IMG/VR virus record: IMGVR_UViG_3300017768_000055
Location: 1 to 28,673 of that record
From: a virus
Length of the DNA: 28,673 bases
Direction: 5' to 3' (one strand)
Below the pieces are notes generated by a model. That model had not been told where the DNA came from, made no database searches, and saw nothing but the letters and a program-made list of their open reading frames with translations. The position numbers and the translations under genes were made by a program. Positions 7,350 to 24,028 of the stretch are shown in pieces. Position 1 is the stretch's first letter, and each line of letters starts with the position of its first letter.

Positions 7350-7607
7350 TTAAAATGGCAATTCCTCTTCACATCTTACCACGTCTGTCAACTCAAAGAC
7401 GATAGGGTGGCAAGATTCCATAATGAGGTATTGGGAGTGCCTATAAAGTTCCTCCATAGTATAGCACATTTTTTCAGTACATTCATCTATTAACTCAGGA
7501 GTTGGTCGATCAACTTCATCAAACGTAAAGGGGATGCCATTGATGTACCACATCTTGACGACACCTTGTCCGTGAATAAGTCTAAAATCTGAATTTACCG
7601 TGTACAT
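7350..7607 (-). CDS. Hypothetical protein rich in acidic residues (85 aa)
   Basis: The long form has 85 residues and starts at the ATG at 7607, overlapping the CpeT-like gene upstream by 13 bases. An internal ATG at 7553 gives a 67-residue form starting MWYINGIPFTFDEVDRPTPE; it has a better ribosome site (AAGGTG, 8 bases upstream) and may be the real start. The body contains three Cys (DECTEKMCY and VVRCEEELPF regions, plus ESCHPI) but no clear metal-binding spacing. I do not recognise a family. Confidence 0.5.
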   Translation of the reverse strand: MYTVNSDFRLIHGQGVVKMWYINGIPFTFDEVDRPTPELIDECTEKMCYTMEELYRHSQYLIMESCHPIVFELTDVVRCEEELPF

Positions 7608-8029
7608 TTTACAAACTCAAAAGGTCCTTTTTCTGATCCCCATAGAAGAGTTCCTGATTTGTCCCACCCTTTGTCAGACGTTTCCCAAGAGTCTTTAGTA
7701 AGTCTTGCCTTGGTTTCAACTCTCCTACCTTGTTCGTCAATCCTTTCAGATTTACCGACCCAAACACGATCTTGGACTTCTGTGAACGTCATATCACTGA
7801 CGTTGATTCCATCTTTGAAAGTTTGTAGGATTAGTTGATCATTATCAATAACAATTTTATGTTCTCTCTGGCGATATACATCACCATTCCAGTCATACCA
7901 CTGTTTAGTTTTCAATACGTCATCTTCGTAGTACCACTCATAATGTACATAAGCAAATGAAGTCGGGTTGAGTTGACATTGCTTGATGTTATGCCAGTGG
8001 TGGACTAAGTGATCAAGAAACTTTTTCAT
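7595..8029 (-). CDS. cpeT: CpeT/CpcT-like phycobiliprotein lyase family protein, copy 1
   Basis: The protein has 144 residues. The CpeT/CpcT pattern is visible: a W-x-N-x-x-Q core near the N-terminus (HHWHNIKQCQLNPTSFAYVH), a lipocalin-like strand (VHYEWYYEDDV), QWYDWNGDVYRQREHKI at about residues 41-57, and a final barrel strand GPFEFVKCTR. CpeT/CpcT proteins in cyanobacteria attach or chaperone bilin chromophores on phycobiliproteins. The phage form is shorter than host CpeT (about 200 residues) and lacks much of the C-terminal part. It lies 4 bases after a paralogue of nearly the same size. Family assignment is good; whether it has lyase activity or only binds a bilin is unknown. Confidence 0.65.
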   Translation of the reverse strand: MKKFLDHLVHHWHNIKQCQLNPTSFAYVHYEWYYEDDVLKTKQWYDWNGDVYRQREHKIVIDNDQLILQTFKDGINVSDMTFTEVQDRVWVGKSERIDEQGRRVETKARLTKDSWETSDKGWDKSGTLLWGSEKGPFEFVKCTR

Positions 8030-8033
8030 AGAT

Positions 8034-8471
8034 CTAATCTATATATTTTCTTTTGAAAATGAATGGTCCTGGAGTTTTACCCCACGTCGTACCTTTATCA
8101 ATAGATGTAAATTCTTCAGCAGTCACAGTGACGTAAGAATATACGTCTTCACCTCTGCTATTCTTAGCATCCTGTTCAGTTCTACCACAGAAACCACCCT
8201 TCCCTACCTTAGTGAAGAGCATACTAGGTTCTTGAGTATTATCCTTGCGAAAGGTTTGCAACTCAATGTGATTACCTTTGTCCAAGAGTTTGTGATTACG
8301 CTCTCGGTACATTTCTCCATTCCAGTCATACCATTGAGCAGAATGAATCTCTCCATCTTCTTCCCAGAACTGATAGTGAACGTGGGAGAAATGAGATGGA
8401 GAGTTCTGTGCTTGTTGTTTGTTTTCCCAAGGATGAAACAACAGTGACTTTAATTCTTCAATCTCGGTCAC
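8034..8471 (-). CDS. cpeT: CpeT/CpcT-like protein, copy 2 (tandem paralogue)
   Basis: The protein has 145 residues and starts with GTG at 8471, overlapping the TGA of the upstream Phd-like gene (GTGA). It aligns along its length with the next gene: HPWENKQQAQNSPSHFSHVH against HHWHNIKQCQLNPTSFAYVH, QWYDWNGEMYRERNHK against QWYDWNGDVYRQREHK, and GPFIFKRKYID against GPFEFVKCTR. The shared W, N, Q, the HVHY strand and QWYDWNG..YR mark both as the CpeT/CpcT barrel family. Identity outside these blocks is low, so the duplication is not recent. The copies may bind different bilins or form a heterodimer; that is inference. Confidence 0.65.
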   Translation of the reverse strand: MTEIEELKSLLFHPWENKQQAQNSPSHFSHVHYQFWEEDGEIHSAQWYDWNGEMYRERNHKLLDKGNHIELQTFRKDNTQEPSMLFTKVGKGGFCGRTEQDAKNSRGEDVYSYVTVTAEEFTSIDKGTTWGKTPGPFIFKRKYID

Positions 8472-9265: not shown

Positions 9266-11722
9266 CTAATTCAGCATAATGGGTAGTCCAACGAACTGTG
9301 CTAGACCACCTGTACAACCTGCTGTGTAGACTCCAGTTCCAACTGTATATGCCATAGCACCGTTGTTGACAGTGTTTAGGATAGCACCACCTGCTCCTGT
9401 AACGAATTCTCCGATACCACCTTTAGGTGTTTTAACCAGAGTCAAGTGACCACCACCTGTACCTGTAACTAGATCCACCATACCCCCAGGTTGTCCTGTA
9501 CACTCGGCAATACGAACGTGTGCAGCAGGGAGAGGTGATGTACCTGCTCCTGATCCACAGATAGTAAGGTCAAGACCTTTCATCAAAGTACATCTACCTG
9601 TCAATCCAGGGATCACATTAGTCATTCCAATGTTCTGGAAAATAACATTGTTGATAAACTCAGACTTCCACGCTGCCTCGTTGATAATCTCACCAGAAAC
9701 AGTGTTCATTAATGTTGTACACTTATTATTAATTGCTGAAGCGTTTAAACTCAACTCACTGTGAGCATTCAATTTAATATTTGCTGCTTGAATCTGATAG
9801 TCACCCTCATAAGCAACGTTATAATCTGATGAATATGTTTGTGCTGCTTTAGATTGCTTTGCACCTGATGCAGGTTCACCAGTCTTTTCATCTGTCTCAA
9901 CATTTTGTGAGAGGTGAGTATTGAATGCACCACCAACCTCAAGGTTGAAATCACCCATAACTTTGAGGTTAAGATCACCCTCAACAGTCAGAGTTTTATT
10001 TTTCTTGACAGTCTTGCAATCATCTCTACCAATGATCTTTGTATCATTTCCAGGGACGTTTGTATGTTGGTCACCCATCACAGTGGCGATCACAGTCTGA
10101 CCACCTGCGTGCTGAACAATAGTTTTCTCTTTTCCTGGGGTGTTATCTTGAATAGTTTTTGCACCATTCAAGAATGATTCTGCTTGTGTAGCATATACAT
10201 CAATATCCGAGAAAAGATTACTGAGGTAACTTCCCTTCTTCTTATTGTTTTTTCCACCACCAGTATAAACAGTAACTTCTTCTTCTAAGAAGTCTGGAAC
10301 ACTAGCACACGTCGTTGTACCCAACAAGGGCATCCAGAATTTAATTTTCGGTCGTTTAATCTTCCTCCCGCAATCCTTGTTTCCAAACAGTGCTGCAAGG
10401 ATACCAAGAATGATTGAAACGAGTGATTGGAAGTTTAACTTAGAGAAATCAAATTCAAAAAGAGTATCTAGTTTATCTTTGATATTACGAGCAACACCAG
10501 TTGCCTTCTTTGCCATAGCAAGTGCTGATGTGATCTTATTAGCAACTCCAGAAACTTTACCAATAGCACCTTGAACCTTACCAATAACTGCGTTGACTGT
10601 ATCAGTAACTTTATCAGCAAAACCACCGACAACTTTAGTAACTACCTTACCTGCAATATCACTGGCGAATCCACTAATATCTCCAAGTGCACCCTGAAGT
10701 CCTTTGATAATATAATTTGCTTCGAAGTTACAGAACAAGTTGGTAATGAAGTCTGCAAGTGTTAGGATTGAAGAGATAACTCCTGTAGGGACAACATTAC
10801 TAATAGCAGACATAATCTTATCCATAATTGCCTCGATGCCTTTTGCAAGCATCTGTTTCAAGGAACTTAGGATACCAGTCATAGCAGAAGAAACATAGTT
10901 CTTGATACCTGCCATCGATTCATTCATCACATCGTTAAAAACCTTCTTACCAGTAATCAATGAAGTGAGATTACCATTTAAGTCAGTCGCGAGTGTGCCG
11001 CTAAGATTGCCGAACTCTGTCAGCATTCTTTCAAGGTCTTTTTCAAAACCGTCCCCACTTGGACCGACCGCTCCATCAGCAACACCTTGTGCTTCTGCTG
11101 GAACCTTAGTAGGGTTTGTATATGGATTTCCAGGTGTTTGTTGCTCTAGGATTGACAACAATCCTCTAGACTTTTCTTCACCACCACCCTCGTCACCAAC
11201 CTGTTGACTTGGATCTACGTTAAATGAAGTACCTTGGTGTGCAACTTGTCCTTTTACATCTTTTGATGCAGGAGGCATTTCATCATCAGATAATGCCTCA
11301 TCATTAGATGCAATAGTAGTTGCACTGATCTTCTCATCTGACGTAGGTGTAGTATCTCCACTTTTAGGATTACTCATACCACGGAATCCACGGAGGGATC
11401 CCATCACAACAGGAAGTTGTGCTTCTTCACCATCTAAAAAGAAACCTAGAACCTGTGCACCAACCTGCAGTTCAGTCTTAGTACCAGTATTCTTGATACC
11501 TGCCTGATCTGTAGGAAGCATAACAACTGCCCACGGTAAATCTTCAGTAGGGACTTTATCAAGATACGATTCACCGCCAGCACCAGTGTACCAACCGACA
11601 ATACGCACCTTGACCCTACCGATCATCTGAGGATCTTTAATAGACTCGACTTCTCCGATCCACCAAGTGAACCCGTCGCGTCCCATTACATCAGATTTTC
11701 CGACAGCAGCAGTTAAACTCAC
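9266..11722 (-). CDS. 5: Baseplate hub spike protein gp5-like, without a visible lysozyme domain
   Basis: The protein has 818 residues and starts with GTG at 11722. Residues 17-112 (WWIGEVESIKDPQMIGRVKV and following, to PVVMGSLRGFRG) match the gp5/VgrG N-terminal OB-fold. Residues 113-225 are an acidic linker. Residues 225-450 are a long amphipathic, Ala/Gly/Val-rich helical region with hydrophobic patches. Residues about 535-610 (GQTVIATVMGDQHTN, KTLTVEGDLNLKVMGDFNLE) form the short-repeat strand pattern of the gp5 beta-helix needle. T4 gp5 carries a T4-lysozyme domain between OB-fold and needle; I see no lysozyme motif here, and the helical region stands in its place. A CTAAATA late element lies about 20 bases upstream. 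Assignment as spike/hub is firm; function of the helical insert is unknown. Confidence 0.85.
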   Translation of the reverse strand: MSLTAAVGKSDVMGRDGFTWWIGEVESIKDPQMIGRVKVRIVGWYTGAGGESYLDKVPTEDLPWAVVMLPTDQAGIKNTGTKTELQVGAQVLGFFLDGEEAQLPVVMGSLRGFRGMSNPKSGDTTPTSDEKISATTIASNDEALSDDEMPPASKDVKGQVAHQGTSFNVDPSQQVGDEGGGEEKSRGLLSILEQQTPGNPYTNPTKVPAEAQGVADGAVGPSGDGFEKDLERMLTEFGNLSGTLATDLNGNLTSLITGKKVFNDVMNESMAGIKNYVSSAMTGILSSLKQMLAKGIEAIMDKIMSAISNVVPTGVISSILTLADFITNLFCNFEANYIIKGLQGALGDISGFASDIAGKVVTKVVGGFADKVTDTVNAVIGKVQGAIGKVSGVANKITSALAMAKKATGVARNIKDKLDTLFEFDFSKLNFQSLVSIILGILAALFGNKDCGRKIKRPKIKFWMPLLGTTTCASVPDFLEEEVTVYTGGGKNNKKKGSYLSNLFSDIDVYATQAESFLNGAKTIQDNTPGKEKTIVQHAGGQTVIATVMGDQHTNVPGNDTKIIGRDDCKTVKKNKTLTVEGDLNLKVMGDFNLEVGGAFNTHLSQNVETDEKTGEPASGAKQSKAAQTYSSDYNVAYEGDYQIQAANIKLNAHSELSLNASAINNKCTTLMNTVSGEIINEAAWKSEFINNVIFQNIGMTNVIPGLTGRCTLMKGLDLTICGSGAGTSPLPAAHVRIAECTGQPGGMVDLVTGTGGGHLTLVKTPKGGIGEFVTGAGGAILNTVNNGAMAYTVGTGVYTAGCTGGLAQFVGLPIMLN

Positions 11723-11899: not shown

Positions 11900-12054
11900 T
11901 GATGTGGATAATAAACTTCAACAAATGAGTTGCACTTAGGACAACTCAGATTAGTGACCATAGAATACTCCGACGAGGTGACTGGATAGTCTTCTTCATC
12001 GAGACTATGGTCACCTCCCCAGATTAACTCAGTTTGGCAATGCCAACAATTCAT
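11896..12054 (-). CDS. Zinc-ribbon microprotein (52 aa)
   Basis: The 52-residue frame starts at the ATG at 12054, overlapping the upstream stop as ATGA, and ends with TGA at 11896. Two CxxC knuckles are present: CWHC at residues 3-6 and CPKC at residues 38-41, a typical four-Cys zinc ribbon. The loop between them is acidic and polar (GGDHSLDEEDYPVTSSEYS). It may bind nucleic acid or a protein partner. The coding sequence also contains a strong set of inverted repeats (11954-12017). Confidence 0.65.
   Translation of the reverse strand: MNCWHCQTELIWGGDHSLDEEDYPVTSSEYSMVTNLSCPKCNSFVEVYYPHQ
11954..12017. repeat. Overlapping inverted repeats that form two exclusive hairpins
   Basis: GTGACCATAG at 11954-11963 is the exact reverse complement of CTATGGTCAC at 12005-12014. 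The same right arm, extended to 12003-12017, also pairs with GAGGTGACTGGATAGTC at 11975-11991 (14 paired bases plus a small bulge, 11-base loop). The two structures share the right arm and cannot form together. They lie inside the zinc-ribbon gene, upstream of the membrane microprotein and gp5. Confidence 0.6.
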
Positions 12055-12740
12055 TTAATGTATTTGTTTTTGAGTAACCACTTCCTTGTGAGAGGAGTGG
12101 GTGAGTAATGTTCCCACATAGGAGTAGATGATGCACAGACTTTAAGTGCTTGTGCAGTCATACCCTCTGTGTGCCCTGCCCAAAACGCTTCCTTTTCCCA
12201 AGGGATTGCCGAGGGTTGTTGGAAATACGTTTTCTCTGCCATATTCTGCCACATTTTAGGAACTTGGTCCTCTGGGTGAATAATAGCGATCAATGAATTG
12301 TTAAGGGTACCTGCCATACAATCCTGAGCAGCGTGCCAACCTTCGTGCCTGACTACTGCCATAAACACATTAGGACGACTGACGTGTGCCTCATTTAGAT
12401 AGAAATGATTACTCACAGTATGGTAAACACCTCTATGTCCAACAGGAAAATACTTTGGACTTGCAATATAAACGTTAATTCCTAATTTGTCAAATGATCT
12501 TGATAGACTATTAAACTCTTCTCTAACTGTATTGAAGTTTTGGTTAGAAAAAATCTTTTGTACATCGTCCGTATTACGGACTCTCTTTACATCTTCAGTA
12601 CACTCCTGTAGGAGCATACATCCCATAGCATCATTTGTAAACCACCCTTTAGTAATTTTACCTTCAATAGGTTTTGGTAAAGGGTTTGCTGCTACAGGTA
12701 AACTCAAACTCAACAATGTCGCCAATAGGACATTACGCAT
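12051..12740 (-). CDS. Secreted HExxH metallopeptidase-like protein
   Basis: The protein has 229 residues. Residues 1-18 (MRNVLLATLLSLSLPVAA) form a Sec signal peptide with a likely cut after Ala-Ala or Ala-Ala-Asn. The zincin motif HEGWH is at 132-136 in the helix AVVRHEGWHAAQD; a downstream WEKEAFWAG at 181-189 offers a Glu for the third zinc ligand, as in gluzincins. Four Cys (41, 47, 141, 202) could form disulfides in the periplasm. The start overlaps the 2OG gene by 8 bases and the stop overlaps the next start as ATGA. A phage-made periplasmic protease could act on the envelope or on a host surface protein. No family name is assigned; metal binding and activity are inferred from the motif. 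Confidence 0.65.
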   Translation of the reverse strand: MRNVLLATLLSLSLPVAANPLPKPIEGKITKGWFTNDAMGCMLLQECTEDVKRVRNTDDVQKIFSNQNFNTVREEFNSLSRSFDKLGINVYIASPKYFPVGHRGVYHTVSNHFYLNEAHVSRPNVFMAVVRHEGWHAAQDCMAGTLNNSLIAIIHPEDQVPKMWQNMAEKTYFQQPSAIPWEKEAFWAGHTEGMTAQALKVCASSTPMWEHYSPTPLTRKWLLKNKYIK

Positions 12741-13553: not shown

Positions 13554-14921
13554 TTATGAGGTTACACTATCTTTAGATAGTTGTAAATGGGTAGTTAATC
13601 CAGTAGGACTATAGTCGTGTTTTAGTCCTACGACAAGATAACGTCCCGAATATACAGGATCCAATACAGTTCTTTCCTCTACGTTAGAAGATGCAGGAAT
13701 TTTACATTGAATTACCATACCGACAGCCAATGATACATTACCTGGGATGGTTATGTCAAGTCTTATGGAGTTAAGTAACTGCCATCGAGAATACGAGTAT
13801 GAACTCGCTGCAATGGTGTCATTATCCATATTTCCTGCAGTATCGGTTCCATCTTGAGACGTTTTCGCATTCTTCATTCCAGGTAGAGCACGGATTTTAA
13901 CTCTGGTAGGTTTTTTCTCATCAAAGTATGCTTCCTTGATCTTTGGAAAAGGAAAAGCATCATTAAGTGTTTCTGCCTGTCCAAATACCTCAATTAATGA
14001 TTGAGTCCTTGGCGGTGAGATTGAACCAGAGGGTCCACTCTTTCCACTCCCTGCTGTAGGGAGATTACCTGAAGTGAGTGCAGGTGCTTTAACACCGATA
14101 ACGGTATTTACATATGCACCAGTTCGCATTTTTTCCAGATGGTTGCCCTGATCTGGATAATTCATACTTTCGATACTGTAAGCATTATACTCGGCATTGC
14201 CGACATTTGCTTGTTCATATGTGAACGTCGGGACACTTCCCTTGTTCATCAATTCTCCCTTGGTAAGGGTATCTATAGTATTAAAATAGAACCCATTCTT
14301 GTTTTCAAAGAACAAATATCCTGCCTTGTTGTTTTCAGATGAAACAATTTTATCAGAGATATATGCAATAACATCAAATGGTCTCCAAGAGGGAGATATA
14401 AAATTGAAGTTACCTTTAGAACCTTCGTATGAATACTTCCGTCCAGATGACTTCAAAAACTTGTTGACAATTTCTTTTACGTGACTTGATCCAGTCTTAT
14501 ATCTAAATGCTTTAAATACTCTATTTGTTTCATTGTTATATGCTTCTGGTGAAACTGTATATATCACATATGATTGTGCTCTTTCAGATTTAGTTACCGC
14601 ACCAATCTTAAAAATACGTTGTCTGACGATTAGAGGTTGATCTGGAGCACTATCTGACTCCATTTCTAGTTGAATAAATTCATTACCAGTTAGATCCGAA
14701 ATCAAGTCAACAGTATCCATTACTGCAATCTCCATTCTGACTGAAGGAGAATCGATAGACTCAATATAATTAAATCCAGGGCAGATACCTCTAATATCTA
14801 CTGCCTTTCCCCCTTCAGGTGACAGTTCCTGAATCTTTTCTGATGGAACATAGTCATCTGCCAAATACAGATTAAACTGTTTAATTTTATACCCTTTTGC
14901 TTGGTACGTTGATTCAGACAT
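13554..14921 (-). CDS. 27: Baseplate hub protein, gp27/gpD-like
   Basis: The protein has 455 residues with the strand-rich composition of gp27/late-control-D hub proteins. The C-terminal segment (DPVYSGRYLVVGLKHDYSPT, then LTTHLQLSKDS) is typical of this family, where it forms the barrel that contacts gp5/VgrG. The N-terminal half (ICPGFNYIESIDSPSVRMEI, then SERAQSYVIYTVSPE) fits the first hub barrel. A Gly/Ser/Pro-rich linker (TSGNLPTAGSGKSGPSGSIS) lies near residue 290. Three copies should form the ring that carries the spike. The start overlaps the stop of the tape-measure-like gene as TGATG. Order and sequence both support the call; the T4 number is by analogy. Confidence 0.75.
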   Translation of the reverse strand: MSESTYQAKGYKIKQFNLYLADDYVPSEKIQELSPEGGKAVDIRGICPGFNYIESIDSPSVRMEIAVMDTVDLISDLTGNEFIQLEMESDSAPDQPLIVRQRIFKIGAVTKSERAQSYVIYTVSPEAYNNETNRVFKAFRYKTGSSHVKEIVNKFLKSSGRKYSYEGSKGNFNFISPSWRPFDVIAYISDKIVSSENNKAGYLFFENKNGFYFNTIDTLTKGELMNKGSVPTFTYEQANVGNAEYNAYSIESMNYPDQGNHLEKMRTGAYVNTVIGVKAPALTSGNLPTAGSGKSGPSGSISPPRTQSLIEVFGQAETLNDAFPFPKIKEAYFDEKKPTRVKIRALPGMKNAKTSQDGTDTAGNMDNDTIAASSYSYSRWQLLNSIRLDITIPGNVSLAVGMVIQCKIPASSNVEERTVLDPVYSGRYLVVGLKHDYSPTGLTTHLQLSKDSVTS

Positions 14922-16945
14922 CAGAACAGATTACTCAATACACTAGCGGATTCAGCAACTCTACCAAACCTGCTAGACAAGAAGTCATTCGCTGGATTGG
15001 GATTACCTTTTTGTACAACAGGGGTACCGCCACCACCACCTGAACTAGTTTTAGCAGTAGGTAGTACGATTGCTTCAGCAACCATAGTCTCTATACTAGA
15101 ATTTAGGTCACTAGTCTTGACCTTAGTAGCAATACTCTTGATATTTGCAACTGTTTTATTAATAATATTACCAGTTCTTGCTTTAAGTGCAGGTGGCATA
15201 ATATCAACAACATTATTCACAACACCACCAATATTCTGTGCAGCAGTATTGATATGTGGTTGCATAAAGTTCATTGCTGCCTGTGCACCTGGGGGTAGAG
15301 TTGCCGATGCCACTGCTGAACCTATACCTTTCAACATACCACCAAATGAATATCCTTTATATTGTCCGTAGTTTGATGGGGGTAGTGATGAAACTGCTGT
15401 TGACTTTTTAGATCCGAAATCAAAAGGAACTGTACCACCCATAGAAAATCCAGGGACTTTATATCCTGCAGAAGTTGCTTGTTGAATTCTTCTACTAGTA
15501 AGTCCAGGGTCTTTCTTAGTATGGGGGGTATTAAAGGGAACAACAAAACCCCCACGAGATCTTTGTGCCACATATTCAGTTCCGTGTCCGATAAAGGATA
15601 CGGACTTACCACCATCGAGTGATACTGGGTAACCTGATTGTGGTCCAGAGATCCAACCACCATCCGACTTCTCAGGTAGAACTGCAGTCTGTGGAACGAT
15701 TCCACCTATGGACATTTCTGGCGTATCTTCGTTATTTGCGTTCTCTGCCGCGTCCATTCTCTCTTGCACCCCAGGAATCATCTTGAGGAAAAATGTCAAC
15801 CCTTCGATCATTTTGATCAGTGGGTAGAATGCCGCTTTACCCATAAATTCGGCAAACGACAGTAATTTAGGTAGATGTGGTTTGATCGCATCTACTATCA
15901 TCTGCAATGGAGGACCCACTGCTTTGAAAAGTTCTGTAATTGCCTCTCTTAAAGGTTTAAAGAACTCATCAAGTGTCTGCATCATAAAGTCAAATGCTTC
16001 CTTAATAGTATTAAAGAAATTACCAACTATAGGTCCAAGGAACTTGCCTGCCTCTTTTCCTAGTAATCCACCAACAGCGTTACCAATCAAACCACCGATA
16101 GGACCTGCAATCTGGTTGCCGATCATACCAAGTGCCATACCGCCACCTGCAGCACCAATACCAGCACCTCTCGCCGCTGCCATCCTGTCTTCTTCAACAC
16201 CGTCATAGTTCTGTGATACATCCTGATATGCTGCAGCACCCTGTGCACCTGCTAGTGCTAACTGACCTAGAGGGTTGCCACCAAGGAATTTACCCAGATT
16301 CAGGATACCTTTACCGATAGTACCAATAATACTACCAAATGCTTTGACAGTTCCGATAGGATTCTTCAGGAATGATAAACCTGCTAATACAGCAAGTCCT
16401 GCACCAAGCATTTTTGCTGCTGCTTTGAATCTGGTCCATCCATCACTATCTTCGCCAAATAACTCGCCATATTTCTGTTTCCACCAATTTATCGTGTTCC
16501 CAATCCACTTAAATAACCCACTAACCATCTCAAACGCTTTTACTATCTTCTCTCGGTTCTCTTTCTTAGATAACCAATTGAGTGCACCAAATATCAAGAG
16601 GTTTTTAAGGAATTTCATCAAATATTCCATAAATCCCAAACCAGCGCCCTTTGTGGCACTGATTGCACTATCTGCAGTATCTCCTTTTGCTTCTATCGCT
16701 GCTTCTCTTTGTCTATCTGCTTGAAGAGCAGCAAAGCGGCGCTGCTCATCCATAAGTCTTTGTTGTGCTAGTTGGTTCTTCTTCAGTGCAAGACCAATAC
16801 TATTTACAGTCGCTCCTAGGGAATTAATTGCTTTAACTGTCGGGACGAAACCTGTGGTGGTAAATGTTTTTTTACCGACAGTCATCTGTGCACCATCTGC
16901 CTCTTTAGGTGGTGTGACGTATTTGTATAGTCTTATCTTACTCAT
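14921..16945 (-). CDS. Tape-measure-like tail protein, paralogue 2 (gp29 position)
   Basis: The protein has 674 residues. Residues 35-90 (AINSLGATVNSIGLALKKNQ, then a charged coiled coil) are followed by a hydrophobic helix and LNWLSKKENREKI at about 123-135, then Ala/Gly-rich helices at 175-300 that look membrane-active. The C-terminal part contains DGGWISGPQSGYPVSLDGG and FIGHGTEYVAQRSRGGF, a type of segment I recall from cyanophage tape-measure proteins. The first 140 residues align with those of the upstream 832-residue protein, so the two genes arose by duplication. One of them should correspond to T4 gp29, the hub tape measure that sets tail length. The gene starts 1 base before the stop of the next and 3 bases after the previous stop. 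Confidence 0.7.
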   Translation of the reverse strand: MSKIRLYKYVTPPKEADGAQMTVGKKTFTTTGFVPTVKAINSLGATVNSIGLALKKNQLAQQRLMDEQRRFAALQADRQREAAIEAKGDTADSAISATKGAGLGFMEYLMKFLKNLLIFGALNWLSKKENREKIVKAFEMVSGLFKWIGNTINWWKQKYGELFGEDSDGWTRFKAAAKMLGAGLAVLAGLSFLKNPIGTVKAFGSIIGTIGKGILNLGKFLGGNPLGQLALAGAQGAAAYQDVSQNYDGVEEDRMAAARGAGIGAAGGGMALGMIGNQIAGPIGGLIGNAVGGLLGKEAGKFLGPIVGNFFNTIKEAFDFMMQTLDEFFKPLREAITELFKAVGPPLQMIVDAIKPHLPKLLSFAEFMGKAAFYPLIKMIEGLTFFLKMIPGVQERMDAAENANNEDTPEMSIGGIVPQTAVLPEKSDGGWISGPQSGYPVSLDGGKSVSFIGHGTEYVAQRSRGGFVVPFNTPHTKKDPGLTSRRIQQATSAGYKVPGFSMGGTVPFDFGSKKSTAVSSLPPSNYGQYKGYSFGGMLKGIGSAVASATLPPGAQAAMNFMQPHINTAAQNIGGVVNNVVDIMPPALKARTGNIINKTVANIKSIATKVKTSDLNSSIETMVAEAIVLPTAKTSSGGGGGTPVVQKGNPNPANDFLSSRFGRVAESASVLSNLF

Positions 16946-16948
16946 AGT

Positions 16949-19447
16949 TTATGAATTTAAACCTGTTAGAGAGAAATCACCAGACTTAGTGACCGTTTGT
17001 ACTCCTATCACACCAGTCTCTGAGACAACAGGTTTAATAATTGGTTGGAATACTACCATTGAAGATCCATCTCCAGAACTTAGTTCGGTATCTTGTTGTT
17101 GAGATGACCGTGTTAATTCACTAGTCTTCGTACTATTTAGATCTGTTGGTCTGATTTCTCTATTGTCAGGACTAGGTGAAGGTCCAGTGCTCAACTGTTT
17201 TGCACCTTTAGCGATAGAAACTCTTATAGTTTCTGGCATCACCTGTTTATATTTTTTCACAAAATCCTTATCTTTATTATTACCTGCAGTACCACCAAGA
17301 GTCACACCAACACAACCTGCAGTACCATTGTCATTAATATCATTATGAAGTTGAATTGCAGATCTCTTACCAATAACACCACCCATATTGTTAATAAAGG
17401 TAGACCAAGTTCCAATACCACTTACATTTGAGTGTTCTGCAAATCCAACAAGAGGATACTTACCATCTGGTAAAGGATAAAGAGCACCAGATACGTTTCT
17501 TCTTTGTGATTGTGATGTGCCTGCTGTACTATATTGACCACTAATCGCTTCCCACTGACCAATCTTTCTATTCTTACCATCAAACAGACGTAGCACACCA
17601 GTAGCACCATCACCGTGTCCTTGGAAATCTATACGTCCTCCTTTTGGTACAGGACTATCATCGGTACCGATACCTTTCTTCGATACAAATGGATCATCGA
17701 CCATAGAAGTTTGAGGTTGTGCCATCTCAAACTGTGCCAATGCTGCCTTCGCACTCGCTGCTTTTTCTTCAGCGAACGGTATTAAAACATTCTCCCAGTG
17801 CTTCGCTTTTTCTTCGTTGGTTGAACCTAAACCATTCCAGTGTCCATTCATAATGGTCATCCCTGGAGCACCATTTGATGTCTTGAACACGCCATCAACC
17901 CCAAACCAGGCAGATCTACTTCCACCTTCACCATTTGCAATTCTTTCTCTTATTACTTTAAGTTCTGCCTTCAATCTCTTCACATCATAGTCTTCATTCT
18001 CTACCTGTGCCATTGCCTTTTGACCATCACTACCAATGACTCTGGTTAAAGTATTCCCTGTACCTTTAATAAATCCTCCAACATTATTAATTGCCCATAT
18101 TGCTTTCTCAAATATCCAGACAATACTATCTAACGCTGCCTTAGCAGCAGGACCAATAACATAGTCCATCAAACCTTGGAAAGCAGCACCTGCAATAGGT
18201 GCAATAAACTCAAGCACCATATCAAGGACGTGCTTCAAAGGTTCAAACAAATCTTGTATTGCTGTTGCAACTGGTTTTACAAATGCATTAAACATTGGTA
18301 AAGCAATATTCTTAAAGTAATCTCCAAGAGGTTTCAGAACAGGTTCTATTGCCTCTCCAAGGAACGCTCCAATCTTATCTCCAAAGAACCCACCTAGAAC
18401 ACCACCCACAATAGGTGCGAATGGTCCTAGGACAGGTGTTAACAGTGCAGTGACCGCAACTGTACCAATAGTGGCACCGATACCTCCACCTGCTGCTACA
18501 TTCATTTTGTCACCAGCAGCGAGTCTGGATCCAAATGAGAGTGCACCTGCAAATATACCTCCACCAGCACCAGATCGCATAAAGCGACCCATACCTGTCA
18601 TACCTTTAAATCCTGCCCTTCCTGCAATACGACCACCGAATCTTGACTTGGATGCATTGCCACCAAATCTTCTAGCGTATCTCTTTCGTGCTGCCTTTGA
18701 TGCGTTACCAGACCTGATACCTTTTGCTACTCTTTTTGGTTTTTGCTTTAAGAAATTATTTTGATTTACTTTCTTTGCGTTTTTTGTTGCCTTGGTACGA
18801 TTAACTTTAAATAATTTTGATAGTTTACCAATATCTCCTGCCAACTTCCAGGGCATTAAAATCCTACTTGCTACCTTGAGCGCGGCGATGCCCCCTACAA
18901 CCTTCAACGCTCTCATTAAGTAACTGTCGTTCCCATCTGGATCGAACAGTCCATCATATATCATACCGAATCCCCACGATCCAACCTTCCAGACCGTGCC
19001 CAACCACTTACCGATCCATTCGAACCCAGTCCGAATTGACTCTTTGTTTTCCTTCTTAGACAACCAGTCTAATGCAAAGAATGTACCAAGAGTTGCCGCA
19101 AATTTAATCAGTGGTTCTATTAATGGTGATAGGAACCCAAAGATACCACTCCCACCCTTTGAATATCCTCTCGATTTCGACTCTCTTTCTATCTCTTCAG
19201 TTGCTTTCTTCTCAATCTTACTCTCTCTCGCCCTGTCCTGTGCTAGAGATCTTCTCCCTTGCACAGCGTACGCTGCATCAAGTCGTGCTTGGTGTCCACT
19301 TGTGAGAATCTTACCAACATCGGTGACAGTATGTCCCAATCGGTTGACCGCTAGGGTCATTGACATTGCAGGATCCTTCTTGTCCATACCAGAGGTAGTG
19401 ACAGGAATAAAGTTTCTTATTGATAACTTGGGTGCTGCTTTTGCCAT
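16949..19447 (-). CDS. Tape-measure-like tail protein, paralogue 1, with a C-terminal murein-enzyme-like module
   Basis: The protein has 832 residues. Residues 30-100 are a charged coiled coil; residues 103-140 carry a hydrophobic segment and LDWLSKKENKES, shared with the next gene's product; residues 210-285 are very basic (Lys/Arg/Gly-rich); residues 290-360 are Gly/Ala-rich and membrane-like; residues 370-470 are amphipathic helices. Residues about 604-746 form a separate domain: FQGHGDGATGVLRLFDGKN, then SGALYPLPDGKYPLVG, then IQLHNDINDNGTAGCVGV with His701 and Cys712. This order (substrate strands, a P-x-G-x-Y segment, H...[ST]xGC) resembles YkuD L,D-transpeptidases and the Tlde1/DUF2778 group that cut or edit peptidoglycan. 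The start overlaps the gp51 stop as TAATG. Tail role firm; enzyme domain probable but unproven. Confidence 0.7.
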   Translation of the reverse strand: MAKAAPKLSIRNFIPVTTSGMDKKDPAMSMTLAVNRLGHTVTDVGKILTSGHQARLDAAYAVQGRRSLAQDRARESKIEKKATEEIERESKSRGYSKGGSGIFGFLSPLIEPLIKFAATLGTFFALDWLSKKENKESIRTGFEWIGKWLGTVWKVGSWGFGMIYDGLFDPDGNDSYLMRALKVVGGIAALKVASRILMPWKLAGDIGKLSKLFKVNRTKATKNAKKVNQNNFLKQKPKRVAKGIRSGNASKAARKRYARRFGGNASKSRFGGRIAGRAGFKGMTGMGRFMRSGAGGGIFAGALSFGSRLAAGDKMNVAAGGGIGATIGTVAVTALLTPVLGPFAPIVGGVLGGFFGDKIGAFLGEAIEPVLKPLGDYFKNIALPMFNAFVKPVATAIQDLFEPLKHVLDMVLEFIAPIAGAAFQGLMDYVIGPAAKAALDSIVWIFEKAIWAINNVGGFIKGTGNTLTRVIGSDGQKAMAQVENEDYDVKRLKAELKVIRERIANGEGGSRSAWFGVDGVFKTSNGAPGMTIMNGHWNGLGSTNEEKAKHWENVLIPFAEEKAASAKAALAQFEMAQPQTSMVDDPFVSKKGIGTDDSPVPKGGRIDFQGHGDGATGVLRLFDGKNRKIGQWEAISGQYSTAGTSQSQRRNVSGALYPLPDGKYPLVGFAEHSNVSGIGTWSTFINNMGGVIGKRSAIQLHNDINDNGTAGCVGVTLGGTAGNNKDKDFVKKYKQVMPETIRVSIAKGAKQLSTGPSPSPDNREIRPTDLNSTKTSELTRSSQQQDTELSSGDGSSMVVFQPIIKPVVSETGVIGVQTVTKSGDFSLTGLNS

Positions 19448-19620
19448 TAAAGTGACTGGTGTTGTCCCGCCTGTTGGCGTTGTCTTGCCTCTTCCTCACG
19501 TAAGTAACGCATCAAGAGGTTCACATAAACATCCCTTTCCCACGGCATCATATTTTCAAGTTCTGTGAGACTGTACTTATGATGTTGCATCAAAGCAAAG
19601 TTGGTCTCATAGATGTTCAT
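19447..19620 (-). CDS. 51: gp51-like baseplate hub assembly protein (57 aa)
   Basis: A 57-residue frame starts at the ATG at 19620 and ends with TAA at 19447, sharing one base with the next ATG. Residues 1-42 (MNIYETNFALMQHHKYSLTE, then LENMMPWERDVYVNLLMRYL) carry the S-x-x-E-L-E-x-M-x-P-W-E-R-D pattern of the short gp51-type or chaperone-type proteins of T4-like phages. The tail is charged and Gln-rich. In T4, gp51 is needed for hub assembly but is not in the virion. Its place between gp26 and the tape-measure genes agrees. Confidence 0.65.
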   Translation of the reverse strand: MNIYETNFALMQHHKYSLTELENMMPWERDVYVNLLMRYLREEEARQRQQAGQHQSL

Positions 19621-19640
19621 CAACGAATCGTGCGCTAGGG

Positions 19641-20345
19641 CTACGCGAAAAAACTTGCTAGTCCTTCGAGTACAATTGGTGATGTAACTTCAGTCTTCGG
19701 ATTGAAAACCTCAATAGTATGGGAGAGTTTAGGCATAGTTTCAAAGAACTTCTGAACTAAACCGAACTGTTGTGAGTTCATATTTTCATAGAATTCAACT
19801 AGTTCTTTAGTTGTGTGATCTTTTCCTTCATATACATCCTCACCTTCAGCAATACTTTCAGTACAACTAGCAGCAAGTTTGAATAGATCGTCTACACCTG
19901 GGTTGTCAACGAGATTATTCTTCACAAACACATCCAAGGATGGATATTGCATAGTGATAGTGACATCATCGCTGACTTTAAGAATGGTGGTATGTTCCTT
20001 AGGAATTATTACCTTCACATCATCAAGGTTGACTTCAACATCAACTTGAGTCTTCTCATCATCAGGGCAAGTGATCTTAAATTCACTCACCTCACCAACA
20101 GATTTACCACGGATTCTAAGAAAGAGATATTCAATATCAAATGTAGCAAGGTCATCAAGTTTCTTGAGGTTGGTACAATTCTTGATAATCTCTTTCACCG
20201 CTTTGATCATCTCTTTATTATCCTGTGTTTCCATAGCAAGATAAAGAAGTTTCTCTTCTCTCACTAGGAATGGTCTATAGGTAACCTTTTGACCACGAGG
20301 AAGCACGCATTCATAATCTGGAATGCTCAGTTTGGGTAAAGGCAT
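19641..20345 (-). CDS. 26: Baseplate hub protein gp26-like (T4 baseplate family)
   Basis: The protein has 234 residues. The N-terminus LPKLSIPDYECVLPRGQKVT, then YRPFLVREEKLLYLAMETQD, is the characteristic start of T4-baseplate gp26 proteins. The internal TFDIEYLFLRIRGKSVGEVS segment and the C-terminal SQQFGLVQKFFETMPKLSH also fit. T4 gp26 is a hub subunit of 208 residues; the size here is close. A CTAAATA late element lies 27 bases before the ATG. It precedes gp51, as expected for linked hub-assembly factors. Confidence 0.85.
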   Translation of the reverse strand: MPLPKLSIPDYECVLPRGQKVTYRPFLVREEKLLYLAMETQDNKEMIKAVKEIIKNCTNLKKLDDLATFDIEYLFLRIRGKSVGEVSEFKITCPDDEKTQVDVEVNLDDVKVIIPKEHTTILKVSDDVTITMQYPSLDVFVKNNLVDNPGVDDLFKLAASCTESIAEGEDVYEGKDHTTKELVEFYENMNSQQFGLVQKFFETMPKLSHTIEVFNPKTEVTSPIVLEGLASFFA

Positions 20346-21986: not shown

Positions 21987-23081
21987 ATGACTACCCCACT
22001 AGTTTACCCAAGAACATTGCCGACCGATATACTCGGGTCGAGACGTGAGATCTCTCGTGAAGATACTTTTGCGACTAAACTCGTAGATTATCTTAAAATT
22101 CAAGTGTACGATCCTCAACAGGGTGGTAATCCTTATACTTATGTAGGTAACAACGGTAAACCCGTAGCAGAACCTTTTAGAAATGCATCTGATGCAGGAT
22201 TAGTTGGTAATGTATTTTTATATTTACCTAATGGTTTACAAGAAAATTATACAGCGATGTATAATGAAACCACTTTAGGTGCAGCAGGTCTTGGTGCTAT
22301 GCAAGCAGCATCAAATCCGACTCAAGGAAATGCTGTTAATACTCTACAAGAAACAGCAGGATCTTTAAAACCAGAGTTTTTAATGAACTCAATATCATCT
22401 GCTATTGGTACAGTTAACTCTACTCTAGGTGCAGGTGGAGATATTGATGGCAATGCTTTGTCTGCCATTGCAACTAAGAAAATATTCAACCCATACCAAG
22501 AAGTTACATTCAAAGGTGTGGCATATAGAAACCACACATTTAACTTTAAGATTGCACCACGTAATGCTAAGGAAGCACAAGAAGCACTAGGTATATTCAA
22601 ACTCCTTCGTTTTGCTATGCATCCTACGATGTCTGGTAGTAATGCTGATGCGATCAAGAAGATGTTTAAGTTAGGTCTCACCAGCACTGATCAAGAAACT
22701 AGAGATAATGCAGAAAAAGCAACAAATGCTCTTTCAACAGGGAATGGTACTGATGTAGGAACTCTGAACAACGCTAGGTTCCTAAACATTCCAAACTATT
22801 TCAGACTCGGTATTGTTCGTGTCAAAGCACAAGAGACTGAGAGTGGTGATGATCTTAGGATTACAGGCAATGGTGGTATGCTCAAGAGTATTCACTCATT
22901 CCCTTCCAAGGTTGTACTTGAGAATCTACAGTTGAATACATCACCTGATAACTTTATGAATACTTTGAGAGACATTACTGATAACACTTGGGACTATGGT
23001 CCAGTTGCATATACAATGACTCTCACCTTCAAGGAAACTCAATTCCTTACTTCAGATATGTTTGCAAGAGGAGGTTCCTAA
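21987..23081 (+). CDS. 48: Baseplate tail-tube cap gp48-like
   Basis: The protein has 364 residues, the same length as T4 gp48. Residues 1-45 (MTTPLVYPRTLPTDILGSRR, then KLVDYLKIQVYDPQ) and the block FKGVAYRNHTFNFKIAPRNA, then KEAQEALGIFKLLRFAMHPT, are the expected gp48 segments; the latter also matches tail-tube-type folds. gp48 forms the platform on the hub from which gp54 and the tube grow. No Shine-Dalgarno site is visible before the ATG, which directly abuts the gp4 start on the other strand. The stop shares a base with the gp53 start. Confidence 0.85.
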   Translation: MTTPLVYPRTLPTDILGSRREISREDTFATKLVDYLKIQVYDPQQGGNPYTYVGNNGKPVAEPFRNASDAGLVGNVFLYLPNGLQENYTAMYNETTLGAAGLGAMQAASNPTQGNAVNTLQETAGSLKPEFLMNSISSAIGTVNSTLGAGGDIDGNALSAIATKKIFNPYQEVTFKGVAYRNHTFNFKIAPRNAKEAQEALGIFKLLRFAMHPTMSGSNADAIKKMFKLGLTSTDQETRDNAEKATNALSTGNGTDVGTLNNARFLNIPNYFRLGIVRVKAQETESGDDLRITGNGGMLKSIHSFPSKVVLENLQLNTSPDNFMNTLRDITDNTWDYGPVAYTMTLTFKETQFLTSDMFARGGS

Positions 23082-24028
23082 TGGCATATTTTAAATATTT
23101 ACCTAACGTATATGTAAGAAACAGAACGTTCCTTAATGGTACCCATCCATATGAACTGACTGTTAATATCTTCCGTCGTATTAAGATCCGAGATCTATAC
23201 AAAGGAGAACTTTTAGGGTTCACTAAGTATGCTATCAAAGATAACGAACGTCCTGATCAAATTGCAAAGAATGCATATGGTGATAGTGGATTAGACTGGA
23301 TTGTTTTACTTGTGAACAACATCATCAATGTAAACACTGAATGGCCAGTGACAAGAGAGGACCTTTATAAGATATGTGTAGACAGATTCGGTACTGTAGA
23401 TAGTGTACATCACTATGAAACTAAAGAGGTTAAAGGTCAGAATGGTGAAGTGATTCTACCTGAAGGTCTTCAAGTCAATGAGAATTTTCAGTACATCAAA
23501 CCAGATGGTACCCTGACTCCTAAGAATGATTCTCGTAGACCTGTCAGTAACTATGAAACGATGGATGAAGAGAATGAATTCAAACGTCAGATCTATTTGC
23601 TACGTGGTGCATACGTTGATGACTTTGTGAATGAGTTCAGAAGACTCAGCAAGTATCTACCTAATGATGAAGTAGATTCTGATGGCAATAAGAAAACCCC
23701 TACCACACTGGCAGAGGAGTTCATTGGTATTACTAACTATAGAAAACCAAGTCAGAGCACAGCGTCAACTGGTTCTGCACGTGGTGGTGGATCATCTACT
23801 GCTCTCATTGCATCTGGTGGTGGGTCAGGTACTGCAGGTGTTGCAGCAGCAGTAGCAACAGAAGTAACTACTGGGACTAGCAGTACAGGTACAACAAGTA
23901 ATAGCACTACATCATACAATACAGAGACAGCAAGCAGCAGTTCGTCATCATCCAGTTCCAGTTCTAGTTCTTCCTCATCTAGTTCTTCTTCATCCTCTGG
24001 ATCATCTGGATCCTCAGGAGGATATTAA
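23081..24028 (+). CDS. 53: Baseplate wedge gp53-like with a Ser-rich C-terminal extension
   Basis: I chose the ATG at 23081, preceded by AGAGGAGGT and overlapping the gp48 stop as TAATG; a longer frame exists upstream but lies inside gp48. The 315-residue protein begins MAYFKYLPNVYVRNRTFLNG, then NIFRRIKIRDLYKGELLGFT, and AYGDSGLDWIVLLVNNIINV, the gp53 wedge core. T4 gp53 has about 196 residues. Here residues beyond about 225 are Ser/Thr/Gly-rich, end in 22 consecutive serines, and close with GSSGSSGGY. The core should join the wedge to the hub; the tail is probably disordered and exposed. Confidence 0.85.
   Translation: MAYFKYLPNVYVRNRTFLNGTHPYELTVNIFRRIKIRDLYKGELLGFTKYAIKDNERPDQIAKNAYGDSGLDWIVLLVNNIINVNTEWPVTREDLYKICVDRFGTVDSVHHYETKEVKGQNGEVILPEGLQVNENFQYIKPDGTLTPKNDSRRPVSNYETMDEENEFKRQIYLLRGAYVDDFVNEFRRLSKYLPNDEVDSDGNKKTPTTLAEEFIGITNYRKPSQSTASTGSARGGGSSTALIASGGGSGTAGVAAAVATEVTTGTSSTGTTSNSTTSYNTETASSSSSSSSSSSSSSSSSSSSSSGSSGSSGGY
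23933..23998 (+). repeat. Run of 22 serine codons using all six codons
   Basis: The stretch codes 22 consecutive Ser and uses AGC, AGT, TCG, TCA, TCC and TCT in mixed order. Mixed codons show that the amino-acid run, not a simple DNA repeat, has been kept. It lies at the C-terminus of gp53. Confidence 0.9.

Follow-up and report, generated by a model that had tools for sequence, protein, structure and literature searches.

A predicted YkuD-fold domain with a conserved His-Cys pair, carried as an exchange cassette by a tape-measure-like tail protein of probable T4-like cyanophages

Results

An 832-residue tail-module protein with a separable C-terminal domain

The window, the stretch of DNA analysed here, covers all 28,673 nucleotides of IMG/VR virus record IMGVR_UViG_3300017768_000055, a virus fragment with T4-like tail-module genes as judged by its gene matches. 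One open reading frame (ORF) of 832 amino acids (aa) within it is the subject of this study, in particular a C-terminal domain of about 150 residues (Table 1). A preliminary description, made from the sequence without database searches, had pointed to a module unlike the rest of this protein and had likened the order of its segments to the YkuD and Tlde1/DUF2778 peptidoglycan enzymes. After translation, the quoted segments, His701 and Cys712 were found where that description had placed them, and the module is indeed separable, its own homologues placing the edges at about residues 600 and 748 (603-745 in the profile match).

Table 1. Features of the 832-aa ORF and of the surrounding tail module in the window.
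Feature	Position	Strand	Basis or remark
Putative 832-aa tail protein, slot 1 of the two-gene tape-measure-like interval	16949..19447	-	ATG start; translation, PHROG, synteny
Predicted YkuD/L,D-transpeptidase-fold domain, residues 600-748	17204..17650	-	43-sequence alignment, AlphaFold2, VIA-align, profile match 603-745
His701 codon, predicted catalytic base	17345..17347	-	Invariant in 43/43 aligned sequences
Cys712 codon, predicted nucleophile	17312..17314	-	Alignment; sole Cys of the protein
N-terminal 599 residues, tape-measure-like, hydrophobic/glycine-rich	17651..19447	-	BLASTP kinship to the N-terminus of the 14921-16945 product
C-terminal tail behind the domain, residues 749-832 including stop	16949..17203	-	Translation
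gp51-like ORF (baseplate hub assembly catalyst), 58 aa, upstream anchor	19447..19623	-	phmmer to S-SZBM1 gp208 product, E 2e-26, in L022
674-aa slot-2 partner	14921..16945	-	PHROG 'endolysin' family phrog_1200; no cysteine
Tail protein phrog_350, downstream anchor	13554..14921	-	E 6e-93
gp26-like baseplate hub protein	19641..20345	-	PF12322, E 4.7e-69
gp5-like baseplate hub/spike	9266..11722	-	OB domain PF06714 above cut-off; trimer domain PF22178 below cut-off
Tail tube gene	within the window		Match to phrog_45
Tail-cap-like protein			PF11091, 19.8 bits, just under its cut-off of 20.2

With the domain alone as query, tblastn detected 12 phage records, corresponding to 8 distinct phages (E, 4e-36 to 2e-22), and relaxing the tblastn threshold to E <= 10 brought in three more records beyond the known phages, all with E 7 or worse. 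A scan of IMG/VR starting from an eight-sequence alignment identified 74 viral contigs with the domain; it used two patterns, one of which holds the His box and neither of which holds the Cys. These 74 loci include near-identical copies, and 43 sequences were left after a 97% redundancy cut of 71, the partial loci L090, L091 and L092 being left out of the alignment. When the viral scan was repeated with a larger alignment, 71 loci were obtained; every one lay on a contig already in the first set, which contained three further loci. A pattern scan of genome contigs gave 67 matches with no relative among them, so no bacterial source was found there. The N-terminal parts of the domain-bearing ORFs vary widely among loci, and the N-terminus of the window protein matches proteins of P-TIM40, S-SZBM1 and S-WAM1 that are without the domain.

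Predicted fold of the domain and its relation to known families

The domain was modelled by AlphaFold2 with 43 homologues (window and contig sequences), giving a mean predicted local distance difference test (pLDDT) score of 90.0 and a predicted template modelling (pTM) score of 0.86. The model matches L,D-transpeptidase/YkuD structures, in agreement with the preliminary description, for which a structure of another fold would have been fatal. In the Foldseek search of the PDB, no match was obtained at E <= 0.001; the top three were Pgp2 (E 1.9e-3), an Acinetobacter L,D-transpeptidase and a 1,3 L,D-transpeptidase. When 997 Foldseek candidate chains were aligned by VIA-align, 64 reached Z >= 8, led by Pgp2 (12.3), Csd6 (12.1), Bacillus subtilis YkuD (10.3) and Bd1075 (9.6). 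By title or by known identity, 49 of the 50 rows listed belong to the YkuD/L,D-transpeptidase class; the title of one row, 4xxt, does not name it. Pgp2, Bd1075 and DpaA are YkuD-type proteins, and Pgp2 and Bd1075 are carboxypeptidases. The cross-linking enzymes LdtMt2 and YcbB also share the fold in VIA-align. Among predicted viral structures, the first four matches were S-N03, S-H38, an unnamed protein and P-TIM68, followed by a Nodularia phage 'endolysin' (E 7e-8), a 'tape measure domain protein' (2.7e-6) and a Tlde1-domain protein (8e-5); a DUF5675 phage protein matched more weakly (E 1.1e-2). From these models the domain is predicted to have the YkuD/L,D-transpeptidase fold.

The domain of the window itself gave no NCBIfam match (E <= 10), no PHROG match (E <= 1) and a chance match only in Pfam, and sequence searches of the PDB likewise gave chance matches only. 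The YkuD, Tlde1 and DUF5675 families form one superfamily, and these were the commonest Pfam families among the 43 members: DUF5675 in seven (best E, 0.014), Tlde1 in six (0.0013) and YkuD in four (0.0034). For YkuD (PF03734) the best score shown was 17.4 bits against a cut-off of 23.4, and for Tlde1/DUF2778 (PF10908) the scores were 16.6 to 17.9 bits against 30.1 in the three of ten members shown; with either family, none of 41 records reached the cut-off. DUF5675 (PF18925) scored 13.0 against 26.7 bits in the one member shown. Tlde1 is characterized by two conserved disulfides together with H121, H129 and C131 (PMC9638812); the phage domain has one Cys and lacks the second His. The resemblance proposed in the preliminary description thus stands for the YkuD fold (AlphaFold2, VIA-align) and falls for membership of Tlde1/DUF2778 at the curated cut-off.

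Conservation of His701 and Cys712

Twenty-five columns are invariant in the 43-sequence alignment, including H701, D703, I704, G708, T709, G711 and C712, and chance as the origin of the motif was ruled out by these columns. Loss of His701 or Cys712 in homologues had been named beforehand as a result that would tell against the proposed YkuD/Tlde1-like domain. In 72 of the 74 loci, representing 53 distinct domain sequences, both residues are conserved, and the other two, L091 and L092, end before the motif; the conservation of His is in part selected for, because one of the scan patterns contains the His box. The GT[A/L/Q]GC box is present in the same 72 of 74 loci (A in 37, L in 34 and Q in one; two truncated) and conforms to [S/T]-x-G-C. 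Five isolate-phage copies, found by tblastn free of any pattern and read in 5 of the 8 distinct phages, keep both residues and a single Cys, located in the motif. Cys712 is the only cysteine among the 832 aa. Of the complete homologous ORFs, which number 64 (53 distinct) and range from about 500 to 1700 aa, 63 have exactly one Cys and L085 has three. In the AlphaFold2 model the His lies in one strand and the Cys opens the next, an order of elements that fits the YkuD fold.

One explanation for such a pair is a true L,D-transpeptidase, which would form 3-3 cross-links or attach or exchange residues, and so reseal or strengthen the wall round the entry hole instead of cutting it. We regard this as unlikely. 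LdtMt2 and YcbB share the fold; LdtA, LdtC and LdtE of Escherichia coli, annotated as L,D-transpeptidases, are likewise without the second His; and the fusions with glycan-cutting domains described below would form a cut-and-mend pair. Against it, the top structural matches, Pgp2 and Csd6, are L,D-carboxypeptidases. In addition, when Tlde1a loses its second His, the exchange of the D-residue stays at the wild-type level and carboxypeptidase activity is partly reduced, whereas cross-linking is greatly reduced; Csd6 is given as an L,D-carboxypeptidase in the same excerpt (PMC9638812). Because the best structural neighbours are carboxypeptidases, and in view of the second-His data for Tlde1a, we lean towards a hydrolytic or exchange role for the domain.

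A catalytically idle domain, which would bind stem peptides and anchor the tail tip to the wall, could be reconciled with the absence of the second His and with an activity that is only predicted. It is very improbable given that His and Cys occur in all 72 copies reaching the motif and that the Cys is the sole one in nearly all complete proteins.

Exchange of the domain segment between phages

The window ORF was compared with those of loci L027, L017 and L028. Synonymous differences per site between the window and L027 were 0.09 in the domain, 0.53 in the N-terminal part and 0.66 in the C-terminal tail; the corresponding values were 0.18, 0.54 and 0.53 for L017, and 0.50, 0.53 and 0.72 for L028. 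Among codons for the same residue, the window and L027 agreed at 123 and differed at 7 in the domain, with 269 agreeing and 151 differing in the flanks (Fisher p 1.2e-13); for the window and L017 the numbers were 112 and 12 in the domain and 280 and 150 in the flanks (p 6.8e-9). The relation was reversed between L017 and L028 (domain, 81 and 31; flanks, 601 and 20; p 6.9e-15) and likewise between L027 and L028 (p 1.3e-4), and no contrast between domain and flanks was detected for window-L028 (p 0.49) or L027-L017 (p 0.30). These p-values measure contrast, not independent events. At a resolution of 25 codons, the breaks between the window and L027 fall near residues 599 and 748, the edges of the domain; those between the window and L017 are less sharp. 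The ratio of nonsynonymous to synonymous differences (dN/dS) in the domain was 0.88 for L027, 0.52 for L017 and 0.29 for L028, with about 0.26 in the N-terminal part. Local constraint on synonymous sites was considered as the cause of the low domain dS and rejected, because dS in the domain is normal for window-L028. The domain segment is a cassette recently exchanged between phages.

Position of the domain-bearing ORF in the tail module

Two giant genes sit between the gp51-like gene and the phrog_350 tail-protein gene, and the 832-aa ORF, the first of the two in the window, lies among tail tube and hub genes. In 67 of the 74 loci the domain-bearing ORF directly adjoins an anchor gene, at most 200 bases separating it from the gp51-like gene ahead of it, from the phrog_350 gene behind it, or from both; in the remaining seven, one or both sides are cut off, and what is visible is consistent. 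The domain occupies the first slot in 47 loci, the second in 26 (in three of which the gp51-like gene is outside the fetched locus, not always outside the contig) and a single ORF filling the whole interval in one (L073).

The N-terminus of the 832-aa ORF is related to the product of its slot-2 partner (BLASTP, E 3e-14, 33% identity over 166 aa). In PHROGs the ORF matches phrog_12696, phrog_790 and phrog_1200, and weakly the tape-measure family phrog_1535 (E 7.4e-4), the stronger matches being labelled 'endolysin' or unknown. From the gene position, the N-terminal kinship and this weak match, we infer that the protein is tape-measure-like. In one study, purified virions of S-CREM2 contained the products of both slot genes, identified by 73 and 71 unique peptides (PMC10665884, excerpt). 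The proteome of S-SZBM1 (PMC9146016) was not used, as the numbering of its genes could not be reconciled reliably with the record.

Slot-gene length may go with tail length, to judge from three cluster C phages: S-CREM2 (L093; 1565/1456 aa, 418 nm), S-N03 (L001; 933/722 aa, 138 nm) and S-H34 (L004; 936/735 aa, 129 nm). Residues about 405-507 of the slot-2 product in the window show 48-64% identity to S-SZBM1, P-TIM40, S-H38 and S-WAM1, and the remainder diverges.

The PHROG labels raise the question of an endolysin that serves lysis at the end of infection, which we judge improbable. Both phrog_790 and phrog_1200 carry the label, and an L,D-transpeptidase gene of the cyanosiphophage Mic1 has been proposed for lysis (PMC11237433, excerpt); the PHROG label of gp5 and the endolysin reading by the authors of the S-CREM2 study weigh slightly in the same direction. 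However, the domain forms part of a long protein of the tail module, encoded next to hub genes, the matches to phrog_790 and phrog_1200 cover residues 26-567 and 27-169, ahead of the enzyme domain, and a 182-kb relative has a separate lysozyme gene.

Fusions and other wall enzymes in the same interval

Pfam was applied to the whole proteins of eight domain-bearing ORFs and to the window ORF. Within the same polypeptide as the domain, GH19 was found in S-N03, glucosaminidase in L044 and phage tail lysozyme in L071 and L073; three of the eight gave nothing at E <= 0.01, and L086 gave a sub-threshold hydrolase match only. Outside these eight, S-H38 also has phage tail lysozyme and the domain in one ORF. 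The record name of the S-N03 protein (L001), 'chitinase', hides a second enzyme domain. Ten slot proteins were also scanned, five being partners in domain-bearing phages and the rest from phages without the domain. A wall enzyme was present above cut-off in three: a lysozyme in S-N03, an M15 peptidase in S-H38, and lysozyme2, SLT and M15 in the partner of L088. An amidase of S-WAM1 was just below cut-off, and six of the ten had none. In the slot-2 partner of the window, no wall enzyme or other enzyme domain was detected by Pfam. Whole-genome searches for wall enzymes covered nine records with PF18013 and five with PF00959, PF01551, PF08291, PF01510 and PF13539.

The virus and its likely host

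Across 12,462 bases, the window and locus L022, which lies on a 182-kb contig, are 99.95% identical, and the two copies of the 832-aa ORF differ by a single residue that is not in the domain. A photosystem reaction-centre gene is present on this contig (PF00124, E 6e-90; five of six related contigs have it). All relatives with names belong to the Kyanoviridae and infect Synechococcus and Prochlorococcus, and because of this kinship the host is very probably a marine picocyanobacterium. The gp5-like product falls in PHROG families named 'tail lysozyme', and Pfam detected no lysozyme domain in it.

Three other observations concern the window. The product of 12051-12740 (minus strand), a phrog_591 protein, has a signal-peptide-like N-terminus and an HEGWH stretch, which resembles the HExxH motif of zinc proteases. 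The neighbouring ORFs 7595-8029 and 8034-8471 (minus strand; 144 and 145 aa) are alike by eye and perhaps a tandem duplication. The ORF at 22988-24028 (plus strand), which comes after the tail-cap-like gene, has a long stretch of serines at its end.

Discussion

Building on the fold, the dyad, the gene position, the fusions and the recombination, all obtained by computation, we favour, at a probability of roughly 0.73, a tail-borne YkuD-fold cysteine enzyme that acts on stem peptides at entry. The virus would be a T4-like cyanophage (Kyanoviridae), and the 832-aa product a tail protein present in its virions, encoded by the first of two giant tape-measure-like genes that come after the hub genes for gp26- and gp51-like products. 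The C-terminal domain of this protein would be a cysteine enzyme with a His701-Cys712 dyad, delivered at entry. With the tail in the periplasm, the domain would attack the stem peptides of the peptidoglycan, most likely hydrolysing L,D bonds as a carboxypeptidase or endopeptidase, or else swapping the terminal D-residue, so that the wall would be loosened or edited where the tube passes. Phages trade the domain as a cassette and pair it with glycan-cutting domains.

Several points weigh against this model. No curated family is reached at its cut-off, a statement judged partly from E-values where bit scores were absent, and a comparison by hhalign between the family and four E. coli proteins, LdtA, LdtB, LdtC and LdtE (shallow profiles), gave a probability of 0.1%, which is not significant; the GC box was nonetheless aligned in register. 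The spacing is H-x10-C, A, L or Q stands in place of the second His, and the canonical H-x(14-17)-[S/T]HGC, as given in the excerpt of PMC9638812, does not occur in the domain. The AlphaFold2 model of the full-length 832-aa protein is unusable (pLDDT 32). Recent constraint on the domain does not emerge from the pairs with L027 and L017, in which synonymous changes are few. The slot proteins of S-CREM2 are without this domain, and the authors of that study list them as endolysins, non-structural and possibly packaged (PMC10665884, excerpt). Finally, other wall enzymes may serve entry, because the 182-kb relative has a separate lysozyme gene (a 187-codon frame) and gp5 belongs to 'tail lysozyme' families.

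A further idea is that an L,D enzyme injected with the tail, instead of opening the wall, re-links or caps stem peptides round the entry hole and so guards the infected cell against leakage or a second phage, the cassette being traded because it has to match the local peptidoglycan chemistry of the host; we hold this to be a doubtful proposition.

To our knowledge, the passage of the wall by phages of marine Synechococcus and Prochlorococcus is poorly known. For this step, the tail-borne enzyme proposed here offers a concrete enzyme class and a named residue, Cys712, with equivalents in S-N03, S-H38 and P-TIM68. It also offers a rule for the genomes of these phages: the interval from the gp51-like gene to the tail-protein gene is an enzyme slot, and this predicts where their other wall enzymes lie. 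The exchange of the cassette suggests a wall step under changing selection. The domain family (53 distinct sequences, 72 loci), named in none of Pfam, NCBIfam and PHROGs, could be annotated directly.

Among known systems, Pgp2 of Campylobacter and Csd6 of Helicobacter resemble the domain over 124-126 residues (Z 12.3 and 12.1) and have the His/Cys dyad; they differ in that identity is 16-18% and that they are the bacterium's own proteins with extra domains, whereas the domain described here is part of a phage tail. Tlde1/DUF2778 is alike in the short His-Cys spacing, in the weak hidden Markov model match of 6 of 43 members and in delivery by a contractile machine, which we infer for the phage domain. 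In contrast to Tlde1/DUF2778, the phage domain is below the cut-off, has neither disulfide of Tlde1a, lacks the second His and is not a type VI effector. DUF5675 (PF18925) is linked to it by the weak match of 7 of 43 members and by the match in the fold search; the match is below cut-off, and the family is one of unknown function.

YkuD-type domains are also listed among phage lytic proteins in PhaLP (10 entries; PMC8310338) and in one gut phage endolysin (PMC13284279); such proteins are of another sequence family, and the excerpts of these sources do not place them in this tail slot. For tape measures, the excerpts of three open-licence papers (PMC6736417, PMC6116114 and PMC3314691) describe no such domain, and the last mentions mycobacteriophage tape measures with transglycosylase domains. 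A parallel in arrangement is motif 3 of the tape measure of mycobacteriophage TM4, likewise a peptidoglycan enzyme within a tape measure, the wall-hydrolase motif aiding infection of stationary cells (PMC1796659, excerpt). TM4 differs in that the motif is another one, that the phage is a siphovirus of mycobacteria and that the function was tested by experiment, whereas the cyanophage domain is known by computation. Wall enzymes in tail and tape-measure proteins are thus already known from TM4, and what is new here is a YkuD-type enzyme, as predicted, at this slot as an exchange cassette of cyanophages.

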